IMG/VR virus record: IMGVR_UViG_3300036944_001289
Span: 124,001 to 188,000 of that record
Direction: 5' to 3' (one strand)
Source: a virus
DNA: 64,000 nucleotides
The notes beneath the pieces are model-generated. The model was given only the letters and a program-made list of their open reading frames with translations. It did no database searches and was not told where the DNA came from. Position 1 is the stretch's first letter, and every line of letters begins with the position of its first letter. Of this stretch, positions 1,922 to 45,666 are shown piece after piece. A program made the position numbers and the translations under genes.

Positions 1922-1929
1922 TATAAATA
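1922..1929 (+). promoter_or_regulatory. Late promoter-like TATAAATA
   Basis: Exact TATAAATA followed by TTATT and then the ATG at 1935 (5-nt gap). No ribosome-binding site fits between them. Confidence 0.6.
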
Positions 1930-1934
1930 TTATT

Positions 1935-2465
1935 ATGAGTATTTTCGATAAAAAAGCTAACCAGATCATTTCATCATTTTTATTAGAAGGTGTAGATTCC
2001 GGATGCACAGTTGTAAAAGTTTCAACACCAACAGGTAAAGTTGATATTAATGCAAAATGTATACAAACGGCTTCAGGTTTATCATACGTGGCTGATGAAG
2101 TTGTTGAAAATATTAATAAAGGTGACGATATTACCGATCTAGTTGTTACCGATGAAGATGAAGAGTTTGATTTTAAGAAAGCTGATCTTGATAAAGACGG
2201 TAAATTATCTTCATATGAAAAAGCACGTGGTGAGGCAGTAGCAGGTGCTAAAGAAGAGAGCGAAGAAGTAGAAGACCCACAACTTAAGAAAATGGGTTTA
2301 GGTAAAGACGCAATTGCCGCTGTAACAGTTGCAGGTAAATTAGCAACAAAAGCAGGCGGGCTTGGTGCTGCAGCACTAACACAAAACAGAATGAATGCTG
2401 CTTACGGTACATTAATGAGAAAAATTGCTAAAAAGGTCACAGATATTTCAAATAAAATACAATGA
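1935..2465 (+). CDS. Tagged protein with an EF-hand calcium-binding loop
   Basis: 176 aa. The N-terminal ~18 residues form a helix ending F-L-L-E-G, a fit to the gp21-type (L/I)-x-E cleavage rule. Residues near 84-95 read DLDKDGKLSSYE, a canonical EF-hand/dockerin calcium loop (D-x-D-x-D-G-x-L-x-x-x-E). A Gly/Ala-rich helical C-terminus follows. It overlaps the next gene by 4 nt. Calcium binding is inferred from the loop; the role in the virion or cell is unknown. Confidence 0.65.
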   Translation: MSIFDKKANQIISSFLLEGVDSGCTVVKVSTPTGKVDINAKCIQTASGLSYVADEVVENINKGDDITDLVVTDEDEEFDFKKADLDKDGKLSSYEKARGEAVAGAKEESEEVEDPQLKKMGLGKDAIAAVTVAGKLATKAGGLGAAALTQNRMNAAYGTLMRKIAKKVTDISNKIQ

Positions 2466-3323: not shown

Positions 3324-3763
3324 TTAGAGACCGTAGTGTAATGCTACATCCCTTGCTATCCTTCTTGCTGAGATGTTAGGTTTATTTACAGATGATTGTA
3401 CATACATTATATCTTCACCTTTATCTGCAACTACACGTACAAAACCTCTATTGTACATCTGTGTATACATAGAACCTTCACCAAAATTTCTATTTTTACC
3501 TAGATATCTCGTTGCAGTGGTAATATGATTATCTAGTACAGGTATAATTTGATCTAAACTGATCCAAAACCATAAGGACATGCATCAGGTAGCTTATTAA
3601 AATCTATACTCTCAAAAAAGAACTGTTTAAATGTCTTAAATGATTCATTGGCTGTTGCAATTCTGAGAGCAGTTATATATTTCTTAACAGAACCGTTTGT
3701 ACATCCAACTTTTTTACCAGTGTCCTTACGATAGACACATTTACCTTTTGTTATATATGGCAT
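3324..3763 (-). pseudogene. First copy of the tandem paralogue pair, with apparent frameshift
   Basis: Two overlapping frames (ATG at 3763 and the frame ending at 3324) together encode one protein. The upstream frame has an N-terminal domain with K-V-G-C-T-N-G-S-V-K-K-Y, then FKTFKQFFFES (tag-like) and D-A-C-P-Y-G-F; the downstream frame continues W-I-S-L-D-Q-I-I-P-V. The second copy encodes P-Y-G-F-W-I without interruption, placing the break at an A-run (3566-3569; T-run on the coding strand) that is one base short. It may be a sequencing error, programmed frameshift or true mutation. Confidence 0.5.
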
Positions 3764-3766
3764 GAT

Positions 3767-4066
3767 TTACCAGTCCTTACAAGCCATGTATCTAGCTGTA
3801 CCAGGTTTTGCAGTAGAGCACTTATGTCTAGCTCTAAAACTCTTTTTACGTTTAGTATTACCTGATTTACCTGTAACACGTACACCTGCTTGACCCCAAT
3901 GTATGCGCTTAAATCCACCACCAGGCTTACGTACACATTGCATCCACTTCTTACCAGGCCTTGTAGATGATGCCTTTTTAGTTGCCTTCGTGCATCTTGC
4001 TGAAGATTTTTCTTCTAATACATCATATTGTGTTAATAACTGTTCGACAATTACGTTAAAACTCAT
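3767..4066 (-). CDS. Basic Cys-containing late protein
   Basis: 99 aa starting at ATG 4066, chosen because a late-promoter octamer ends 5 nt before it. After an N-terminal helix (MSFNVIVEQLLTQYDVLEEK, tag-like V-L-E) comes a strongly basic domain rich in Lys/Arg/Gly with regularly placed Cys and Trp (A-R-C-T-K, W-M-Q-C-V-R-K-P-G-G-G, R-H-K-C-S-T-A-K-P-G). The composition suggests nucleic-acid binding. I have an impression of similar domains in other marine viruses but cannot name a family with confidence. Confidence 0.6.
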   Translation of the reverse strand: MSFNVIVEQLLTQYDVLEEKSSARCTKATKKASSTRPGKKWMQCVRKPGGGFKRIHWGQAGVRVTGKSGNTKRKKSFRARHKCSTAKPGTARYMACKDW

Positions 4067-4079
4067 AAATATATTTATG
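4064..4079. promoter_or_regulatory. Palindromic divergent late promoter containing both start codons
   Basis: CATAAATATATTTATG is a perfect 16-bp palindrome. Read on either strand it is CATAAATA, 5-nt gap, ATG. The outward start codons at 4066 (minus) and 4077 (plus) are only 10 nt apart, so each gene's octamer overlaps the other gene's start codon. Confidence 0.6.
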
Positions 4080-4451
4080 GCATCAAACAATAATGATCAG
4101 CAAAAACTTTTCGAAAGTTATATAAGGATATTAAACGAAGATGTAGGTCTTGGACCTAAACATAAGGGTACTGATAATATGAATGTTACTTCAATTGGCT
4201 CTACAGGTAAGCCAGGCACATCACATATGGATATTTCTAAGAGTAATCTTACACCGGCGAGTGAAAACGAAGAAGTTCAGAACTATAAAGGTAGCTTAGA
4301 TCAAGTAATAGATGATATTGTTCAGAATCTAGAATTTATAAGAACTAAGAAACCTGTATTAAAAACAACAGATCGTAAACTATTACTAAAAAGCGTACAA
4401 CATGAAGTTGATCGCGTAGTGCACATAATAAGTAAAGGTGAGATACAATAA
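4077..4451 (+). CDS. Tagged hypothetical late protein
   Basis: 124 aa from ATG 4077, the start set by the promoter palindrome. N-terminal QQKLFESYIRILNED has two tag-like endings (L-F-E, L-N-E). A Gly/Ser/Thr-rich linker follows, and the last ~60 residues are helical with many Lys/Asp, ending H-E-V-D-R-V-V-H-I-I. It lies 1 nt before the Hc1-like gene. Function unknown. Confidence 0.6.
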   Translation: MASNNNDQQKLFESYIRILNEDVGLGPKHKGTDNMNVTSIGSTGKPGTSHMDISKSNLTPASENEEVQNYKGSLDQVIDDIVQNLEFIRTKKPVLKTTDRKLLLKSVQHEVDRVVHIISKGEIQ

Positions 4452-4452
4452 T

Positions 4453-4647
4453 ATGAACGAAAACATTGAAACAATAAAACAAGAATACTCAGCATTTATA
4501 GAAGATATTAGCAAATTTACCGAAAAAGGTACTGTTGCTGCTGCCAGTAGAGCACGCAAATCATTGCTTAAAATAGGAAAGACAGTAAAAGTCCTAAGAA
4601 AGCAAATTCAAGAAAGAAAAAAAGAGCTTCAAACTACCAATAAATAA
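4453..4647 (+). CDS. Hc1/histone H1-like DNA-binding protein
   Basis: 64 aa from ATG 4453. The core F-I-E-D-I-S-K-F-T-E-K-G-T, then AAASRARKSLLKIGK and a Lys/Arg-rich helix, matches the plan of small bacterial histone H1-like (Hc1 family) proteins: a short acidic helix, K-G-x-x-A-A-x-x-R-A-R-K, then a basic helix. Such proteins bind and compact DNA and are common in Bacteroidota and Chlamydiae. It could coat phage or host DNA. The lineage hint is inference. Confidence 0.6.
   Translation: MNENIETIKQEYSAFIEDISKFTEKGTVAAASRARKSLLKIGKTVKVLRKQIQERKKELQTTNK
4639..4646 (+). promoter_or_regulatory. Late promoter-like AATAAATA
   Basis: Overlaps the end of the Hc1-like gene. It sits exactly 5 nt before a GTG at 4652, which favours GTG 4652 over TTG 4649 as the next gene's start. 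Confidence 0.5.
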
Positions 4648-4651
4648 TTTG

Positions 4652-5050
4652 GTGATAACATTTAAGATATTTTTTGAACAAAAAGCCCTCGGTCTAATCG
4701 AGACGATTAATATCGAGGGTATTGGACCTATTGCTGCAAAAGTAGATAGCGGTAACGGTGCCTATAATGTATTACACGGTACAGATGTATCTGTTAAAGG
4801 TGATAAGGTAACTTTTACTACAGTAAATGGTAAGAAGTTAAATAAACCTTTTAAAGGCTATATAGATATCAATATTGGTTCTGGTAATATTGAACAAAGA
4901 CCAACTATAGAGTTTAGTGTATCTATAAATGGAGAAGATCATGAAAATGTACGGTTTTCCATTGCAGATAGAACCCAGAACGAAGAAAAAGTGCTGCTAG
5001 GTAAAGACTTCATAGCAGCACTTGGTGGTTTAATAGACGTAAATAAATAA
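4652..5050 (+). CDS. Retropepsin-like aspartic protease domain protein
   Basis: About 132 aa. Residues near 24-36 read IAAKVDSGNGAYN, resembling the catalytic D-(S/T)-G loop of retropepsin-fold proteases such as the RimK-associated family; a later L-L-G-x-D-F-I and an I-x-F-S-V strand pattern fit the same beta fold. The N-terminus (VITFKIFFEQ) carries the tag pattern. The GTG start is chosen by promoter spacing. In a T4-type phage it might process head or internal proteins, but no target is visible. The domain call is by motif only. Confidence 0.5.
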   Translation: MITFKIFFEQKALGLIETINIEGIGPIAAKVDSGNGAYNVLHGTDVSVKGDKVTFTTVNGKKLNKPFKGYIDINIGSGNIEQRPTIEFSVSINGEDHENVRFSIADRTQNEEKVLLGKDFIAALGGLIDVNK

Positions 5051-6925: not shown

Positions 6926-6933
6926 AATAAATA
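6926..6933 (+). promoter_or_regulatory. Late promoter-like AATAAATA
   Basis: Five nucleotides (TTAAT) separate it from ATG 6939. Confidence 0.55.
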
Positions 6934-6938
6934 TTAAT

Positions 6939-7322
6939 ATGCGTATCAATAAAGTAATAGAGAATACTTTTAACACATTAAACTTAAAGAGAATCAGACT
7001 TAAAAGTGATCCTAACAATAACATAGTTCCTTATGAAGGTTATGTATTAGAAGAATGTGATGATGGCACTATGCAGATATATGCAATAGGTGCTGAAAAT
7101 CCTTATATGCAAGTAACACCTGATATGGTTGATGTACAGCAATCACTAACACCTTTAGATAAAATTAAGCTTATAATAGCTGGATGCATAGATAAAGGTG
7201 TTGCATGTCAAATTAAAGACTTAAATAATTTATCTGATATTGAAGCAACATTACTTTCAAGTGGATGTACAATGGAAGATATGTATAACATTTTCAAAAA
7301 ATACTTCTTAACAAATGAGTAA
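6939..7322 (+). CDS. Hypothetical late protein
   Basis: 127 aa, unrecognised. It begins with a basic helix (MRINKVIENTFNTLNLKRIR), followed by a short beta-rich segment with G-Y-V-L-E-E-C-D-D-G-T and an all-helical C-terminal half. It lacks a clear tag cleavage site. It overlaps the next gene by 8 nt, so the two are likely co-translated from the late promoter at 6926. Confidence 0.55.
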   Translation: MRINKVIENTFNTLNLKRIRLKSDPNNNIVPYEGYVLEECDDGTMQIYAIGAENPYMQVTPDMVDVQQSLTPLDKIKLIIAGCIDKGVACQIKDLNNLSDIEATLLSSGCTMEDMYNIFKKYFLTNE

Positions 7323-8505
7323 ATTTTTACAAACAATAAATGAACAAGCTCCTACAGGTAAAATGCCAATTGGTAGTATACCTACAGGTAAAGGTATAAA
7401 GCCACAGCAACCTGTTCCACCTAAACCCACAACCCCACAAAACTATCAGAACAAAAGTTCATTAGGTCAAATAGGTGGCGCTTTAAGAAAAATTGGTTCT
7501 GGATTTCAAAAAGTAAAAGGAGCAGTCTCTGCTGTAAAAGACTTCACAGCTACAGGTGATCTTAGTGTATTACAACAACTTGGACAACAACTAATCAATA
7601 GAGCACTTGATTTAGATACATATAAAATATCTGCTTTTGGTAAAAAGGGATATACAGATGTTTTACTTATCGATGAAGAGTTGATAGCAAAAATTGGATT
7701 ACTAACACCGACAAAAAAAGTTAAAGCAGAGAGCGCAGACATTATTTTACAAAGCGGATTATTGAATGGTAATAAATTCTTACAAGTGTTAAAAGAAGCA
7801 AAACCAGCTGTAAAACAAAAACCGCAAGTTGCTATTGCTCCTCAATTTTTATTTGAACTAACAAAAGAAAGAAATCTAGGTACAAATGGTAAGCAATATA
7901 CGTTAACACCTAAGACACCTGAAGTGCAACAATATCTTAATGATAAAGGTATTAAGTTTGTAACATTTCTACGTGATCCAAATAACTCACCAGAAAATAT
8001 AGTAGGTAATGTCAGATTTGATGATAACTCAGGTAAGTTACAGTTTTATGATCTAGAAAATCAATTTATACAATCATTAGAAACAGAAGTAAAATTTGAA
8101 TATTCACCACAGGATAAACTATATAAAATAGGTTCATCTTTAACAGACCGCTCTTTTGAAGATATAGATCAAACTAAAGAATTACTAAAGAAAGGTATAT
8201 TGCTAATACATCCAAGAGAGAAATTATTTAGATTAGAAGGACCTACACAGGAAGGTAAATTTGCTAATTTTACTAATACACAGACGAAAGAACAATTTCA
8301 CGGTTTGCTAAACACATATCAGACTCCAGATAAAAAGACAAACTTTATTGTAATGTCTAGTATTAAACCTGGGCTAAAACCTTACACACAACCAACTGTA
8401 AGTAAACCAAGTACACCAAAAGTTGTAGCACCTAAGAAGGTTACTAAACCAGTGGCTGCTCCAGCCAAGCCAGCTACAACTGCACCAAATAAAACCACAC
8501 CTTAA
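7315..8505 (+). CDS. Large tagged hypothetical protein with Pro-rich ends
   Basis: 396 aa. The tag MSKFLQTINEQ is followed by a Gly/Pro/Gln-rich linker (to ~45), a Gly/Ala amphipathic stretch (~45-80), a globular mixed domain (~90-360) and a Pro/Lys/Ala/Thr-rich tail resembling a flexible linker. The layout suggests a secreted, ejected or virion protein rather than an enzyme. No family recognised. It converges by 4 nt with the next gene. Confidence 0.6.
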   Translation: MSKFLQTINEQAPTGKMPIGSIPTGKGIKPQQPVPPKPTTPQNYQNKSSLGQIGGALRKIGSGFQKVKGAVSAVKDFTATGDLSVLQQLGQQLINRALDLDTYKISAFGKKGYTDVLLIDEELIAKIGLLTPTKKVKAESADIILQSGLLNGNKFLQVLKEAKPAVKQKPQVAIAPQFLFELTKERNLGTNGKQYTLTPKTPEVQQYLNDKGIKFVTFLRDPNNSPENIVGNVRFDDNSGKLQFYDLENQFIQSLETEVKFEYSPQDKLYKIGSSLTDRSFEDIDQTKELLKKGILLIHPREKLFRLEGPTQEGKFANFTNTQTKEQFHGLLNTYQTPDKKTNFIVMSSIKPGLKPYTQPTVSKPSTPKVVAPKKVTKPVAAPAKPATTAPNKTTP

Positions 8506-11401: not shown

Positions 11402-11409
11402 TATAAATA
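11402..11409 (+). promoter_or_regulatory. Late promoter-like TATAAATA
   Basis: Directly abuts the terminator. TTATT separates it from ATG 11415. Confidence 0.6.
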
Positions 11410-11414
11410 TTATT

Positions 11415-11783
11415 ATGAAGTTATCATATATTTTGGGATGTATCAATCAAATAAAGATACATCACTGGTTTACAGGTTCTTATGCTGAACATAAAGCTTT
11501 ACAAAAAGCTTATAATAATTTAGATGAATTATTCGATAGATTAGTGGAAGTGTATTTAGGTAAAAATGGTAAAAGTACTAACGTTGTATCAAATTATGAT
11601 ATTTCTGTAAACGGTTGGTCACCAACAGAACCACTCGATAAATATTATGAAAATATGCGTAATTCTTTAATAACTTATCTTAGAGGTATTTTTAACCCAG
11701 AAGGGGATAAGGATATACTAAATATAATAGATGAGTTAGAGGGTGAATTTAATCAGCTTATTTATCTTTTAAGGTTGAAGTGA
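11415..11783 (+). CDS. Ferritin/Dps-like helical protein
   Basis: 122 aa, all helical. The segment IHHWFTGSYAEHKALQKAY resembles the first helix of Dps/ferritin-like small proteins of T4-type phages (H-x-W-x-T-x-S-Y-A-E-H-K), followed by D-E-L-F-D-R-L-V-E. In Dps this helix provides ferroxidase ligands. DNA protection or iron binding is possible but unproven. A late octamer lies 5 nt upstream. Confidence 0.5.
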   Translation: MKLSYILGCINQIKIHHWFTGSYAEHKALQKAYNNLDELFDRLVEVYLGKNGKSTNVVSNYDISVNGWSPTEPLDKYYENMRNSLITYLRGIFNPEGDKDILNIIDELEGEFNQLIYLLRLK

Positions 11784-25958: not shown

Positions 25959-27590
25959 GTGTTAAAAAATCTAGTCTCTTTCTTTCCCGAAAATTATACA
26001 CCCAGTAATCAGCAGCAAGCGCTCCTAGAAAAAATAGATAAAGCGTTTGAAGAAAATAAGTTTGTAATATGTAATGCACCTACGGGTTCTGGTAAGAGTT
26101 TTTTATCTAAAACATTAGGTAATTACTCTACAGAATGTTCTTCCGAATTTAAACAGCTTATTACAAGTTATGATGCGTTTAAACAGACATACGATGGTTC
26201 GTATGAATATGAACCTGACTGTATGGCAGAAGAACCTTTCGGTTCTTTTGTATTAACAATAACAAAATCTCTTCAAGATCAGTATCAAAAACTATTTCAA
26301 GAAGATGCTATTTTAAAAGGTAAAACCAATTATACATGTCAAGTAGATGATCAATTTGATGTAGACACCGCACCATGCTTATTGACACCTAAATTAAAAG
26401 AGACATGTTGGCAAAAAAACATGTGCCCTTATTATAATGCGAGAAATGATATACTGACAAGTAGGTTCGGTATCTTAAATTATAAGATGTTTCTTTCGTT
26501 GCCAGGTCATGTAAAAAGGAAGCAATTTATCATCTGTGATGAAGCTTCTGAATTGGAAGATACATTGGTTAGTCAATTTTCAGCTACGATTGACCCTGAA
26601 AAGCTTAGAATAGCAGGAGCTAAAGTAACACCTCTTATCAATCATACAGACTATAGTCAAGTTCAAAAATGGCTTAATAATATATGCATTACGGTAAGTG
26701 AGGAAGCTGATCTATTACTTTCTAAACTCCTTTCAAAGAAGAACGATAAAAATGCTCAATCGGATAAAATTAAACTTAATTATTTAAGAAGTATACACGG
26801 TAGTATTAAAATGATTTTAGACACATGGCACGAATGTGAATATGTAGTACAGAAAGAGGATAAGGTCGTTAAATTAACACCTCTAAAGGTAGATACTTTA
26901 TCTAAACATATATTTGAACATGCTGATAAAGTGTTATTAATGTCTGCTACTATAATTGACCATAAGACGTTTGCTAAAACTCTAGGTATAACTGATTACA
27001 AGTATGTAGAGGTTGATAGTACTTTTGATCCTGCTAAAGCTCCAATCTTTATTAATACCAAGCTAAAGCTTAATCATGGCAATCTAAAAGATAATCTACC
27101 TACGATTGCTAAACAAATACAAGCTATTTGCGATAAACATAAAAACGATAAAGGTATTATACATACACATTCGATGGCAATTACTAGTTACTTGCAAGGT
27201 TCAATAAAAGGTAAGAGATTCCTTTTTAGATCTGAAGGTCAGAAGAATGAAGTGCTATTAACACAACATGCAGAATCTACAGAACCTACTGTTGTTGTAA
27301 GCCCATCAGTTGCATTTGGTGTTGACTTTAAAGATGATTTAGCTAGATTCCAGATAATAGTAAAAGCAGCATTTCCACCTTTAGGTGATGCAAGAATAAA
27401 GAAGTTATTTGAAATGGATAAACAATGGTACACTGATAAAATGCTTTGTAATTTTGTACAAGCATGTGGTAGAGGTGTTAGAAGTAAGGATGATCATTGT
27501 ATAACGTATGTGTTAGATGCGTGTATATATGATGCTATTATTAAAAATAACCGTAATCTACCTAAGTACTTTCTCAATAGATTCGTATAA
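25959..27590 (+). CDS. DinG/XPD-like superfamily 2 helicase with Fe-S cysteines
   Basis: 543 aa from GTG 25959. Walker A is NAPTGSGKSF (~35-44), Walker B-like ICDEASELED (~190), motif III L-M-S-A-T and motif VI QACGRGVRS. Four cysteines between motifs I and II (T-C-Q-V, P-C-L-L, T-C-W-Q, M-C-P-Y) are placed like the 4Fe-4S ligands of XPD/DinG helicases. It would unwind 5'-3' on DNA during repair or replication. Shorter than E. coli DinG (716 aa). Confidence 0.75.
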   Translation: MLKNLVSFFPENYTPSNQQQALLEKIDKAFEENKFVICNAPTGSGKSFLSKTLGNYSTECSSEFKQLITSYDAFKQTYDGSYEYEPDCMAEEPFGSFVLTITKSLQDQYQKLFQEDAILKGKTNYTCQVDDQFDVDTAPCLLTPKLKETCWQKNMCPYYNARNDILTSRFGILNYKMFLSLPGHVKRKQFIICDEASELEDTLVSQFSATIDPEKLRIAGAKVTPLINHTDYSQVQKWLNNICITVSEEADLLLSKLLSKKNDKNAQSDKIKLNYLRSIHGSIKMILDTWHECEYVVQKEDKVVKLTPLKVDTLSKHIFEHADKVLLMSATIIDHKTFAKTLGITDYKYVEVDSTFDPAKAPIFINTKLKLNHGNLKDNLPTIAKQIQAICDKHKNDKGIIHTHSMAITSYLQGSIKGKRFLFRSEGQKNEVLLTQHAESTEPTVVVSPSVAFGVDFKDDLARFQIIVKAAFPPLGDARIKKLFEMDKQWYTDKMLCNFVQACGRGVRSKDDHCITYVLDACIYDAIIKNNRNLPKYFLNRFV

Positions 27591-27593
27591 ATA
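27586..27593 (+). promoter_or_regulatory. Late promoter-like TATAAATA
   Basis: Overlaps the end of the helicase gene; TATTT separates it from GTG 27599. Confidence 0.55.
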
Positions 27594-27598
27594 TATTT

Positions 27599-28162
27599 GT
27601 GAAGTTCTCTACATATTACAAATTGGATGAGTCTCTCAAGACTAAACTAAAAGCATTAGGATTAGCAGGTCTAGCTGCTTTAACACCTTACACTAAAGCT
27701 TCAGATATGAGTGTAAATTTTCAGATGCCTGCAACTATCGCACAGTCGCAACGTAATAGGACGGCTTCCAAAACTGCGACAGATATAGATATTGTTGCTG
27801 CTACGTTATATAAGGAAGCTAGAGGTGAAGGTAAGAAAGGTATGGAGGCTGTAAATGAGGTTATACATAATAGATCTAAAAAGAAAAAAAAATCTCTATC
27901 TCAAATATGTACTGAACCTAAGCAATTCTCATGCTGGAATAATATAGCACCTACAAAAGATGTTATAGACTCTATTGCTAAAAAAGATCCAAAAAGTTTT
28001 TCAATAGCTAAGAAAATTGCATCTGATGATTTAACAAACCATACTAAAGGTGCTGAGTATTACCATACACTAGCTGTAAAGCCAACGTGGGGACCAAAAC
28101 TAAAGAAAAGCGGCTACCAAACAGTAATTATAGGTAATCACATTTTTTATTATAAAAAGTAG
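27599..28162 (+). CDS. SleB-type cell-wall hydrolase, tagged
   Basis: 187 aa from GTG. Residues ~65-185 match Hydrolase_2/SleB lytic transglycosylases: AATLYKEARGEGKKGM (catalytic Glu in the E-A-R-G-E block), V-I-H-N-R, C-T-E-P-K-Q-F-S-C-W, and a C-terminal H-I-F-Y-Y. The N-terminus MKFSTYYKLDES fits the tag pattern and is followed by a hydrophobic L-G-L-A-G-L-A-A-L stretch that might be a signal or membrane helix. Candidate endolysin or virion hydrolase. Confidence 0.75.
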   Translation: MKFSTYYKLDESLKTKLKALGLAGLAALTPYTKASDMSVNFQMPATIAQSQRNRTASKTATDIDIVAATLYKEARGEGKKGMEAVNEVIHNRSKKKKKSLSQICTEPKQFSCWNNIAPTKDVIDSIAKKDPKSFSIAKKIASDDLTNHTKGAEYYHTLAVKPTWGPKLKKSGYQTVIIGNHIFYYKK

Positions 28163-39885: not shown

Positions 39886-41340
39886 TTAGAAGTAAACTGA
39901 CTGATTGCCAGGTGTGAATGCCTGACCGAGTCCGCTTACTATAATAACGTGGTAGTAGAGGTTTGCGCCGAAAATGTTGTCTACAACACCGTAACGGGTT
40001 AATAGACCAACACGTGGTGCAAAGTCGTTCTGACCAATGGTGCGTTGTACCATAACAGGTATGTATGGGCAGTAGATGATACCGGTATCGTAGAATTCTG
40101 GACCCTTGTAGCCAAGTAGTGCATATTCTGGACGATTTGTAGTATCAACGTATTGACCTTCTGTTCTGGTGTCTCTGTAAACCTGGAAACGACCACCAAG
40201 GCTACCTACCTTAGCAACACCGACTGGCTGTGTGTTAACATTGCCTTGAACTGGTACCCATTGGAATTCAGGTAGCATTTCAAGGATTGCGCAAACGCGA
40301 GGTGTTGCAACAATGAAGTTTGCAGCGCCACGACGATTACGTACAGCAATACGGTTAGCTTCGATAATTAGTCTTTGATAGAAGTCACGGTTACGTTCGA
40401 CCAACCAACGGCCATCTGCTGAAGCAGGAGACCAGATAGAATAACCAACGCCAGCACCTGCATTGAGGGCGACTTGGATCATTCTAATAATCATTTCACG
40501 GTCGATTTCGGCCTGAATTTCATAGCTCATAGCGTTTGTTAATTCAGTGTCGATATCAATACCGTTCATGTTCTTGAGGTCTTGCTCAAGCTCTACGGAC
40601 CAGCGGGCGCCTAAGCGTCTTGTACCAGCTTCAACAGCAGTCTTTTCAAATGAAACTTCAAATGTCGGAATGTTTTCCGAGATTTCAAAGCTTGATAGAA
40701 GAGCTGCTACACCGTTATTTTGACCGTTATTAATAAAATTAACGGGCAATGCAGAGCTACCAGAAAGGTAGGCTGCGGATGTACCGGTGTAAGCACTGTT
40801 AAGGTACTGATAGCCTGCTTCCTGACCAGCTGCAGAGGTAAGAATACCAGACTGACCGGCAGGAGCGTTGCCATTAGAACCTAAAGTGCTACCTGTGTAG
40901 CGATAACGAAGAGCGAATGCGAGACCTACTGGACCAGCCATTGGTTGAACGCCGACAATTTCGTTAGAGATAAGCTCTGGGAAAGTACGGCGGATCATGG
41001 GGATCAAGATTTTTGGAAGACGGTAGTCACCAGGTGCGTATGTATCTGTACCAGGTGTACCGGTAGAGTTCCATGAGTTCATACCTGCTGTGCCACCAAC
41101 TGCACCACCGAAACCGGCAGTATTAACTGTACCGGATGGGTTGTAGTTAGGACCAGCTTCGTTAACCATACACCATTGCTCTTGGTTTTCCAATAGCATT
41201 GCTGTATTTAAACGGGTGTGGTTGTCTTCAATCGGAGCAACGTTCTTAGAAGAGTAATCCAAAACTGGACCCCACTTCTCAAGAAGCGCCTTTGCTCTTG
41301 ATTCATTGATATATGCTTGTGTAGGACGAATAGTGTTCAT
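39886..41340 (-). CDS. Major capsid protein (gp23-like)
   Basis: 484 aa, near the T4 gp23 length (521). The N-terminal ~65 residues are helical and include ALLEKWGPVL, T-A-M-L-L-E and CMVNEAGPNY, so cleavage by the prohead protease is expected after V-N-E or a nearby (L/I)-x-E. The body has gp23-like blocks such as LPKILIPMIRRTFPELISN, ELEQDLKNMNGIDIDTE and RMIQVALNAG. Its codons look clearly richer in G+C than the neighbours', as expected for the most highly expressed gene. Confidence 0.9.
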   Translation of the reverse strand: MNTIRPTQAYINESRAKALLEKWGPVLDYSSKNVAPIEDNHTRLNTAMLLENQEQWCMVNEAGPNYNPSGTVNTAGFGGAVGGTAGMNSWNSTGTPGTDTYAPGDYRLPKILIPMIRRTFPELISNEIVGVQPMAGPVGLAFALRYRYTGSTLGSNGNAPAGQSGILTSAAGQEAGYQYLNSAYTGTSAAYLSGSSALPVNFINNGQNNGVAALLSSFEISENIPTFEVSFEKTAVEAGTRRLGARWSVELEQDLKNMNGIDIDTELTNAMSYEIQAEIDREMIIRMIQVALNAGAGVGYSIWSPASADGRWLVERNRDFYQRLIIEANRIAVRNRRGAANFIVATPRVCAILEMLPEFQWVPVQGNVNTQPVGVAKVGSLGGRFQVYRDTRTEGQYVDTTNRPEYALLGYKGPEFYDTGIIYCPYIPVMVQRTIGQNDFAPRVGLLTRYGVVDNIFGANLYYHVIIVSGLGQAFTPGNQSVYF

Positions 41341-41347
41341 CGATAAT

Positions 41348-41355
41348 TATTTATT
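41348..41355 (-). promoter_or_regulatory. Late promoter-like AATAAATA (minus), capsid gene
   Basis: Seven nucleotides before the capsid ATG at 41340. Confidence 0.6.
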
Positions 41356-44517: not shown

Positions 44518-45666
44518 CTAGCCGACAAAGAATAGAGGAGGTTCATTATCACCAAGCCCGGGTGTAGCACCGGTATATAGTTGCTCTTCGAGTTTTTCCT
44601 TCTCAGCAAGACCTTCCGATAACATGTCTGCATTTACAGATCCACCACCGAATAATGTAGTACCTTGGTACTTACCACGCACTCTTGCAAGTACTATTTT
44701 TGTTAATGCAAGAGAATATTGATATACCCACTGCTCTTGTATTACATCTCTTAAAGGCTTTTCAACATAACAGCTTATAACACCATAATATTGTGAAGTG
44801 CTTTCACCAGCTTTTGGTTGAGGATATATTCTCATTAACTGAGTTCTTTCATTAAAGTCGTATGAAGGTTTAATTGCCAGTAACTTCTCTCTATTGTTTA
44901 ACCAGTCCTTTAATACATACCAGCTTATTAAATCAAAGCCGTAATTACCCATCGCATAACTGAAATAGGTTTGTTGTGCTAATGTTTGTTCAATTGTAAA
45001 CAGCGTATTAATACCTGTTGTAGATCCTTGTTCAAAGTCTGTAATAGCGATTACTTTACGATAATCCATTACGTCATAATCAAAAGAGTTATTATATTTT
45101 GTAGATGATACTGGTGTACCTAATTGTGTTATCTGTCTTTGAGATGTTTGTGTAAAATTAGCTGATAGAGATGAATTAAAAGCAGTAATTTGACTATATA
45201 TTGTTGTATCAAATATTTCATTTACAAATAGACCACCACTTAGTGCTGCAGATAAACTTGTAGATGTATTAAAGTAACCTGAATTTGTTGCTGTATTTAC
45301 TACGTATGCAACAGTTTGCTGTGGTACGTAATTTGTATATTGAGGGTTAGAAGTTTTACCTTTTGTCTGATCTAACACACTTGCATCGTTTAATGTTACT
45401 AAAGAGTCTAGTCTAATACCAACATCTTTCTCATAAAGGTTACTATTGAATAATATATACTCTCTGGTATAACCGGCAAATTTAGTAAACATTTCACAAG
45501 CTATGCTAATATTTTCATATAACTGGTCTCTATGAACCTCTACATTTATAAATGGGTAACCAAGGCTTCTAAGAATTCTTTCTGATAATCTATTAAAAGA
45601 AGTTATCTTGTTTGAAAGATTAGTACTTTGAAAAGCAGAGATGGGTGTTATATCGCACTGTGACAT
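44518..45666 (-). CDS. Neck protein (gp13-like)
   Basis: 382 aa. The N-terminal block LGYPFINVEVHRDQLYENIS followed by A-C-E-M-F-T-K-F-A-G is characteristic of gp13-type neck proteins in marine T4-like phages; a C-terminal Y-V-L-K-D-W-L ... R-G-K-Y-Q-G segment also fits. Neck proteins close the head and prepare it for tail joining. Longer than T4 gp13 (309 aa), mainly through a Ser/Thr-rich insert at ~85-175. Confidence 0.6.
   Translation of the reverse strand: MSQCDITPISAFQSTNLSNKITSFNRLSERILRSLGYPFINVEVHRDQLYENISIACEMFTKFAGYTREYILFNSNLYEKDVGIRLDSLVTLNDASVLDQTKGKTSNPQYTNYVPQQTVAYVVNTATNSGYFNTSTSLSAALSGGLFVNEIFDTTIYSQITAFNSSLSANFTQTSQRQITQLGTPVSSTKYNNSFDYDVMDYRKVIAITDFEQGSTTGINTLFTIEQTLAQQTYFSYAMGNYGFDLISWYVLKDWLNNREKLLAIKPSYDFNERTQLMRIYPQPKAGESTSQYYGVISCYVEKPLRDVIQEQWVYQYSLALTKIVLARVRGKYQGTTLFGGGSVNADMLSEGLAEKEKLEEQLYTGATPGLGDNEPPLFFVG

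Follow-up and report, generated by a model that had tools for sequence, protein, structure and literature searches.

How can two divergent genes be transcribed and translated when only 10 nt separate their start codons? The locus that raises this question lies in a window (the whole stretch of DNA that was analysed, 64,000 nt) comprising bases 124001–188000 of a 209,282-bp virus record. An earlier note on this DNA had proposed that a 16-bp palindrome provides an octamer, a 5-nt gap and an ATG on both strands and thereby acts as two promoters and two starts at once.

Geometry of the palindrome and its two genes

The sequence at 4064–4079, CATAAATATATTTATG, is a perfect 16-bp palindrome and matches the earlier description exactly, including the 10 nt between the start codons of the opposite genes at 4066 (−) and 4077 (+). 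The locus comprises the following features:

4064–4079, both strands: 16-bp palindrome, two interlocked late octamers, each with the 5-nt gap and start codon of the other gene
4064–4071, plus strand: late octamer CATAAATA for the plus gene, predicted −13 to −6 (placement from T4 late promoters, PMC2988020)
4072–4079 (read 4079–4072), minus strand: late octamer CATAAATA for the minus gene, predicted −13 to −6 (T4-based, as for the plus strand)
4077–4451, plus strand: plus gene, 124 aa, predicted transcription start 4077, the A of the ATG
4453–4647, plus strand: second gene of the plus unit, starting 1 nt past the 124-aa gene's stop; similar to Hc1 in Pfam (possibly owing to composition)
3767–4066, minus strand: minus gene, 99 aa, phrog_7595/DUF5754-like, predicted transcription start 4066, the A of the ATG
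3554–3763, minus strand: second gene of the minus unit, 69 aa, starting 3 nt past the stop of the 99-aa gene

On the plus strand, CATAAATA (4064–4071) is followed by TATTT (4072–4076) and the ATG at 4077, and on the minus strand the same octamer (4079–4072) lies 5 nt ahead of the ATG at 4066. Reverse-complemented, CATAAATA reads TATTTATG, which consists of 5 nt and an ATG, so that each octamer provides the gap and the start codon of the other gene. The two abutting octamers form a perfect palindrome and hence a symmetric, shared −10 element of the kind expected of a bidirectional promoter. With this geometry, neither gene would be expected to have a normal leader, a point that the earlier note had put more categorically. 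CATAAATATATTTATG is present in a single copy in the window and in the whole record, whereas the dinucleotide content of the record predicts approximately 0.001 copies, and 0.01 for any NATAAATATATTTATN, both figures being post hoc. Perfect 16-bp palindromes per se are not rare here (n = 20); the unusual part is the octamer/start geometry, not the palindromy. A near copy, TATAAATATATTTGTG, is found at 27586–27601 of the window, where a GTG located 5 nt past the octamer opens 187 codons.

Each of the two genes heads a compact unit. The minus protein matches phrog_7595 (E = 2.4e-5), its similarity to DUF5754 being below the Pfam cut-off (20.7 versus 27.4 bits), and has 279 relatives, many of which align from residue 1, so that the start at 4066 is secure. 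Neither PHROGs nor Pfam gave a match for the plus protein, whose only relative is encoded in a near-identical contig. Given the lack of independent relatives, the start codon of this gene rests on the octamer rule described below, with 4077 being the likeliest position. A candidate homology between the plus protein and the products of genes divergent from the relatives of the minus protein was rejected as too weak (17–25% identity, mainly near the N-terminus).

Conventional promoters could, in principle, reside inside the opposite genes and yield overlapping antisense leaders, with the palindrome being a regulator site or an RNA hairpin; a 16-bp palindrome is indeed operator-like, and a transcript running across it could form a 6-bp hairpin. 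However, sigma-70-like matches in the region are no more frequent than expected by chance (5 versus 7.7), the flanking genes contain no further octamer, the RNA hairpin is not significant (z = −1.06), and the octamer unit precedes many unrelated genes without any palindrome. We regard this arrangement as extremely unlikely.

Octamer-to-ATG spacing and the T4-like late genes

The octamer NATAAATA occurs 153 times in the record, and in 31 cases an ORF-opening ATG is located exactly 5 nt downstream, compared to six cases at 6 nt and zero to four at any other spacing up to 39 nt. Five control motifs of the same composition show no peak at 5, only smaller ones at 2, 3 and 7, because partial overlap with the real motif falls at these distances. 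The signal is the spacing to the ATG and not the octamer count: abundance alone was discarded as evidence, being at chance level (TATAAATA, 19 copies versus 20.6 expected in the window). Examples from the window include:

1922–1937, plus strand: octamer TATAAATA, 5 nt, ATG of gene 1935–2465
4639–4654, plus strand: octamer AATAAATA, 5 nt, GTG start of gene 4652–5050
6926–6941, plus strand: octamer AATAAATA, 5 nt, ATG of gene 6939–7322
11402–11417, plus strand: octamer TATAAATA, 5 nt, ATG of gene 11415–11783

The rule extends to GTG starts (4639/4652 and 27586 in the window). In T4 late promoters, the first octamer base is at −13, the −35 region is not conserved, and the sequence just downstream is AT-rich (PMC2988020). 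Given that the T4 octamer spans −13 to −6, a 5-nt gap places +1 on the A of the ATG. Of 88 starts with the 5-nt gap in four genomes, 82 have a pyrimidine at position −1, and positions −5 to −1 are GC-poor; the pyrimidine preference fits an initiation site at the ATG. The late mRNAs of this virus appear to begin at, or a few letters from, the start codon, with the palindrome as the extreme case.

The record shows no Shine-Dalgarno signal before its starts genome-wide, as would be expected of leaderless messages: an ATG follows a Shine-Dalgarno core at 4–9 nt in 6 cases and at 12–17 nt in 15, whereas the corresponding counts are 81 versus 10 in the cultured Pelagibacter phage HTVC008M and 23 versus 3 in T4. 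Nor is Shine-Dalgarno placement before ATG clear in three relatives (G005, G007 and G009). In a record devoid of this signal, some other start signal is to be expected, and the motif is locked to the ATG; thus, the octamer could be taken for a translation signal, namely, an AT-rich, non-Shine-Dalgarno start context within mRNAs that begin further upstream. Nevertheless, the motif is the T4 late promoter octamer, which in T4 and Syn9 precedes the ATG by approximately 20–30 nt, it co-occurs with a homologue of the late sigma factor gp55, and it is absent from the replication genes checked, all of which makes a purely translational role very unlikely and argues for a late promoter.

The record comes from an uncultured, T4-like bacterial virus and encodes homologues of the gp23 capsid protein, gp20 portal, gp18 sheath, gp17 terminase and gp21 protease, as well as of the gp43 polymerase, gp44 clamp loader and gp55 late sigma factor. 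The gp55 homologue (149 aa, record positions 122376–122822) matches phrog_234, late sigma factor, with E = 7.7e-28, and gp55 is also encoded by nine larger relatives (51–100% identity). For gp33 and gp45, we obtained no match to HTVC008M or Syn9 proteins or to PF02916, the clamp model being weak even in HTVC008M, so that the T4 late apparatus beyond gp55 is putative here. Octamers are located 5–8 nt before the ATG of the capsid, sheath, gp21, gp13 and gp6 homologues, the capsid gene being the following:

39886–41355, minus strand: major capsid gene, 484 aa, octamer 41355–41348, 7-nt gap

The gp43, gp44, gp32 and gp62 homologues have no octamer at the starts examined. Among 30 octamer genes, PHROG annotations include baseplate, sheath, neck and protease proteins, but also endonuclease-like ones, so the late-gene assignment is good where the function is known; most of these genes have no PHROG match. 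The capsid protein is at best ~34% identical to cyanophage capsid proteins, placing the virus in a deeply separated group, and megablast against phage records gave no match. Genes for PhoH and QueE (PHROGs) and FolE2 (Pfam) are found nearby. Among cellular FolE2 sequences, the nearest ones found belong to Flavobacteriales (54–60%), which hints weakly at a Bacteroidota host; promoter patterns of the Bacteroidota and sigma-70 types, sought in the record, were not above reversed controls. Several small proteins (window 1935–2465, 2462–2812, 7315–8505, 4077–4451 and 3767–4066) share a short N-terminal segment ending in LLEG, LINE, TINE, ILNE or VLEE. The T4 prohead protease recognizes (I/L)xxE sites, and these small proteins may be head proteins trimmed by gp21.

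Recurrence in other viruses

The earlier note had also suggested a search for the same palindrome between divergent genes of related genomes, and such cases exist. At least 119 copies are present in viral contigs, compared to 15 for a control palindrome of the same composition (complete scan). Once similar contexts among the matches listed had been merged, 62 distinct ones remained, of which 7 have ORFs of at least 80 aa flanking the palindrome on each side; for the other CATN10ATG sites of these contigs, the figure is 3 of 283 (Fisher p = 3e-4). One of the seven (L150) is a near-identical relative of the window. In others, one flanking ORF encodes a named protein, namely, a RuvC-like resolvase (L100), a radical SAM protein (L207; L109 carries this pair too) or a cytidylyltransferase-like protein (L200), and the partner across the palindrome is an unknown protein in each case. 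Furthermore, one gene pair is shared by two contigs, L129 and L134 (71% and 34% amino acid identity), around the same 16 bp, with flanks of 50–57% nucleotide identity; a wider scan for the partner gene of this pair and for the gene in L176 recovered no further relatives. In G003, the palindrome pair retains the 5-nt gap, although Shine-Dalgarno sites and longer leaders are general in that genome; there, at ~45644–45659 (L207), the palindrome lies between two 389-aa ORFs, one of them radical SAM. G003, G005, G007 and G008 were picked for carrying the palindrome and are thus unusable for estimating its frequency.

Most of the listed palindrome copies are flanked by a long ORF on a single side or on neither. 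As a separate observation, a one-sided palindrome precedes a conserved 109-aa ORF (MDKDLIHQILKDY...) in many contigs (L104, L107, L113, L138, L161, L182 and others). The predominance of copies without long ORFs on both sides, along with the plus protein lacking independent relatives, is what would be seen if only one promoter direction were real, the symmetry on the other side being coincidental or carried over and the gene there being weak or expressed from elsewhere. However, both ORFs open exactly where predicted, both starts obey the genome-wide 5-nt rule, and the dual arrangement occurs at other divergent pairs above the local background. A single functional direction is therefore rather unlikely, and we favour dual use, in which one direction might still be much weaker than the other.

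The upstream regions of the minus protein family, gathered by protein similarity independently of the palindrome, provide a further view of the spacing. TAARTA is found 5–12 nt before the ATG in 48 of 49 distinct upstream regions and at exactly 5 nt in 33. Divergent layouts in this family include the exact palindrome (L082 and L085), octamers overlapping by 4 bp (L020, L021 and L024) and outward octamers with 30 nt between the starts (L047 and L088). The gene is often also divergent to a tail sheath-like gene (MASRTIASPGV...), with starts roughly 70–90 nt apart (L028, L030, L033, L035, L041, L049, L060 and L077). Beyond this family, octamer spacing peaks at 5 in G005, G007 and G009, whose gp55 proteins are 56–59% identical. 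The octamer-to-ATG distance is mostly 14–35 nt in T4 (peak at 27–28) and 20–32 nt in Syn9, and in HTVC008M 9 of 45 octamers are exactly 5 nt before an ATG.

Proposed mechanism and comparison with known systems

The proposal of two promoters and two starts in one element is favoured by the genome-wide octamer–5 nt–ATG unit, which is also seen in relatives, by the gp55 homologue, by the absence of a Shine-Dalgarno signal and by the presence of the palindrome between other divergent pairs. We consider it quite probable that the 16 bp are a bidirectional, leaderless late promoter of a T4-superfamily phage, with the start sites and dual use deduced from sequence. Under this model, the host RNA polymerase with phage gp55 would recognize the octamer alone, without a −35 element, on either strand, and would initiate 6 nt past it, on the A of a start codon lying within the facing octamer. 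Both mRNAs would begin with AUG, rightward at 4077 and leftward at 4066, so that no Shine-Dalgarno sequence would be needed. Because the octamers would share one melted region, a single polymerase would act at a time and output would be split between the genes; since each octamer contains the start codon of the other gene, the site should be contested by two polymerases. Such competition is plausible, given the strength of T4 late promoters during infection.

On a broader scale, we lean slightly towards a scenario in which late leaders and Shine-Dalgarno sites were lost from a clade of T4-like phages, with the octamer set such that transcription starts on the AUG. The palindrome would then be an interlocked module that recurs and is close to the minimum size able to accommodate two full promoters and two start codons, making two late genes share one polymerase site. 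As such, it would expose a clade-wide leaderless late-promoter rule, predicting, for dozens of late genes of uncultured T4-like phages, the transcription start to the nucleotide. The octamer–5 nt rule is a simple promoter-finding aid that also fixes start codons for annotation. If the model is true, late transcription and leaderless translation co-evolved in phages that do without Shine-Dalgarno sites, and the palindrome offers a minimal natural example in which to study competition at bidirectional promoters. The literature searched yielded no account of this palindrome or of T4-like phages with leaderless late transcription; an AR9 paper notes that leaderless transcripts are frequent in phages (PMC5312081), and late-promoter prediction failed for pelagimyophages in one study (PMC7029224).

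Among known systems, the T4-type late promoter (gp55/gp33/gp45) shares with the present one the octamer NATAAATA, the lack of a −35 element, the AT-rich downstream sequence, the gp55 homologue and the association with structural genes, with TATAAATA-like octamers found upstream of late genes and gp55 encoded in the record. By contrast, the octamer here is 5–8 nt from the ATG rather than about 20–30 nt as in T4, there is no Shine-Dalgarno leader, and gp33 and gp45 were not found. Closest in layout are the divergent late promoters of T4 (gene 4/53 and inh/segE), in which two facing octamers likewise lie between divergent genes. However, the T4 octamers are 6–7 bp apart, with starts ~50 bp apart and normal leaders, whereas those of the palindrome adjoin directly, with the start codons inside them, suggesting that leader loss permits compression to 16 bp. 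HTVC008M also has octamers 5 nt before ATG, and its divergent gp2/gp4 pair has abutting outward octamers with 26 nt between the start codons; unlike in the present record, Shine-Dalgarno leaders are widely used and the octamers are not interlocked. In prokaryotic bidirectional promoters, as described by Warman, Grainger and colleagues, start separations of ~10, 18 and 23 bp are common, steric limits bar simultaneous binding of two polymerases, and competition appears at high activity (PMC12825309). The palindrome resembles these promoters in its symmetric −10 element read either way, with a predicted separation of 11 bp, but differs in being a phage late sigma octamer without a −35 element and in having the start codons within the promoter element. 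Thus, the T4 late promoter, the bidirectional promoter and the leaderless mRNA are each known, and the palindrome would combine them as a new variant.
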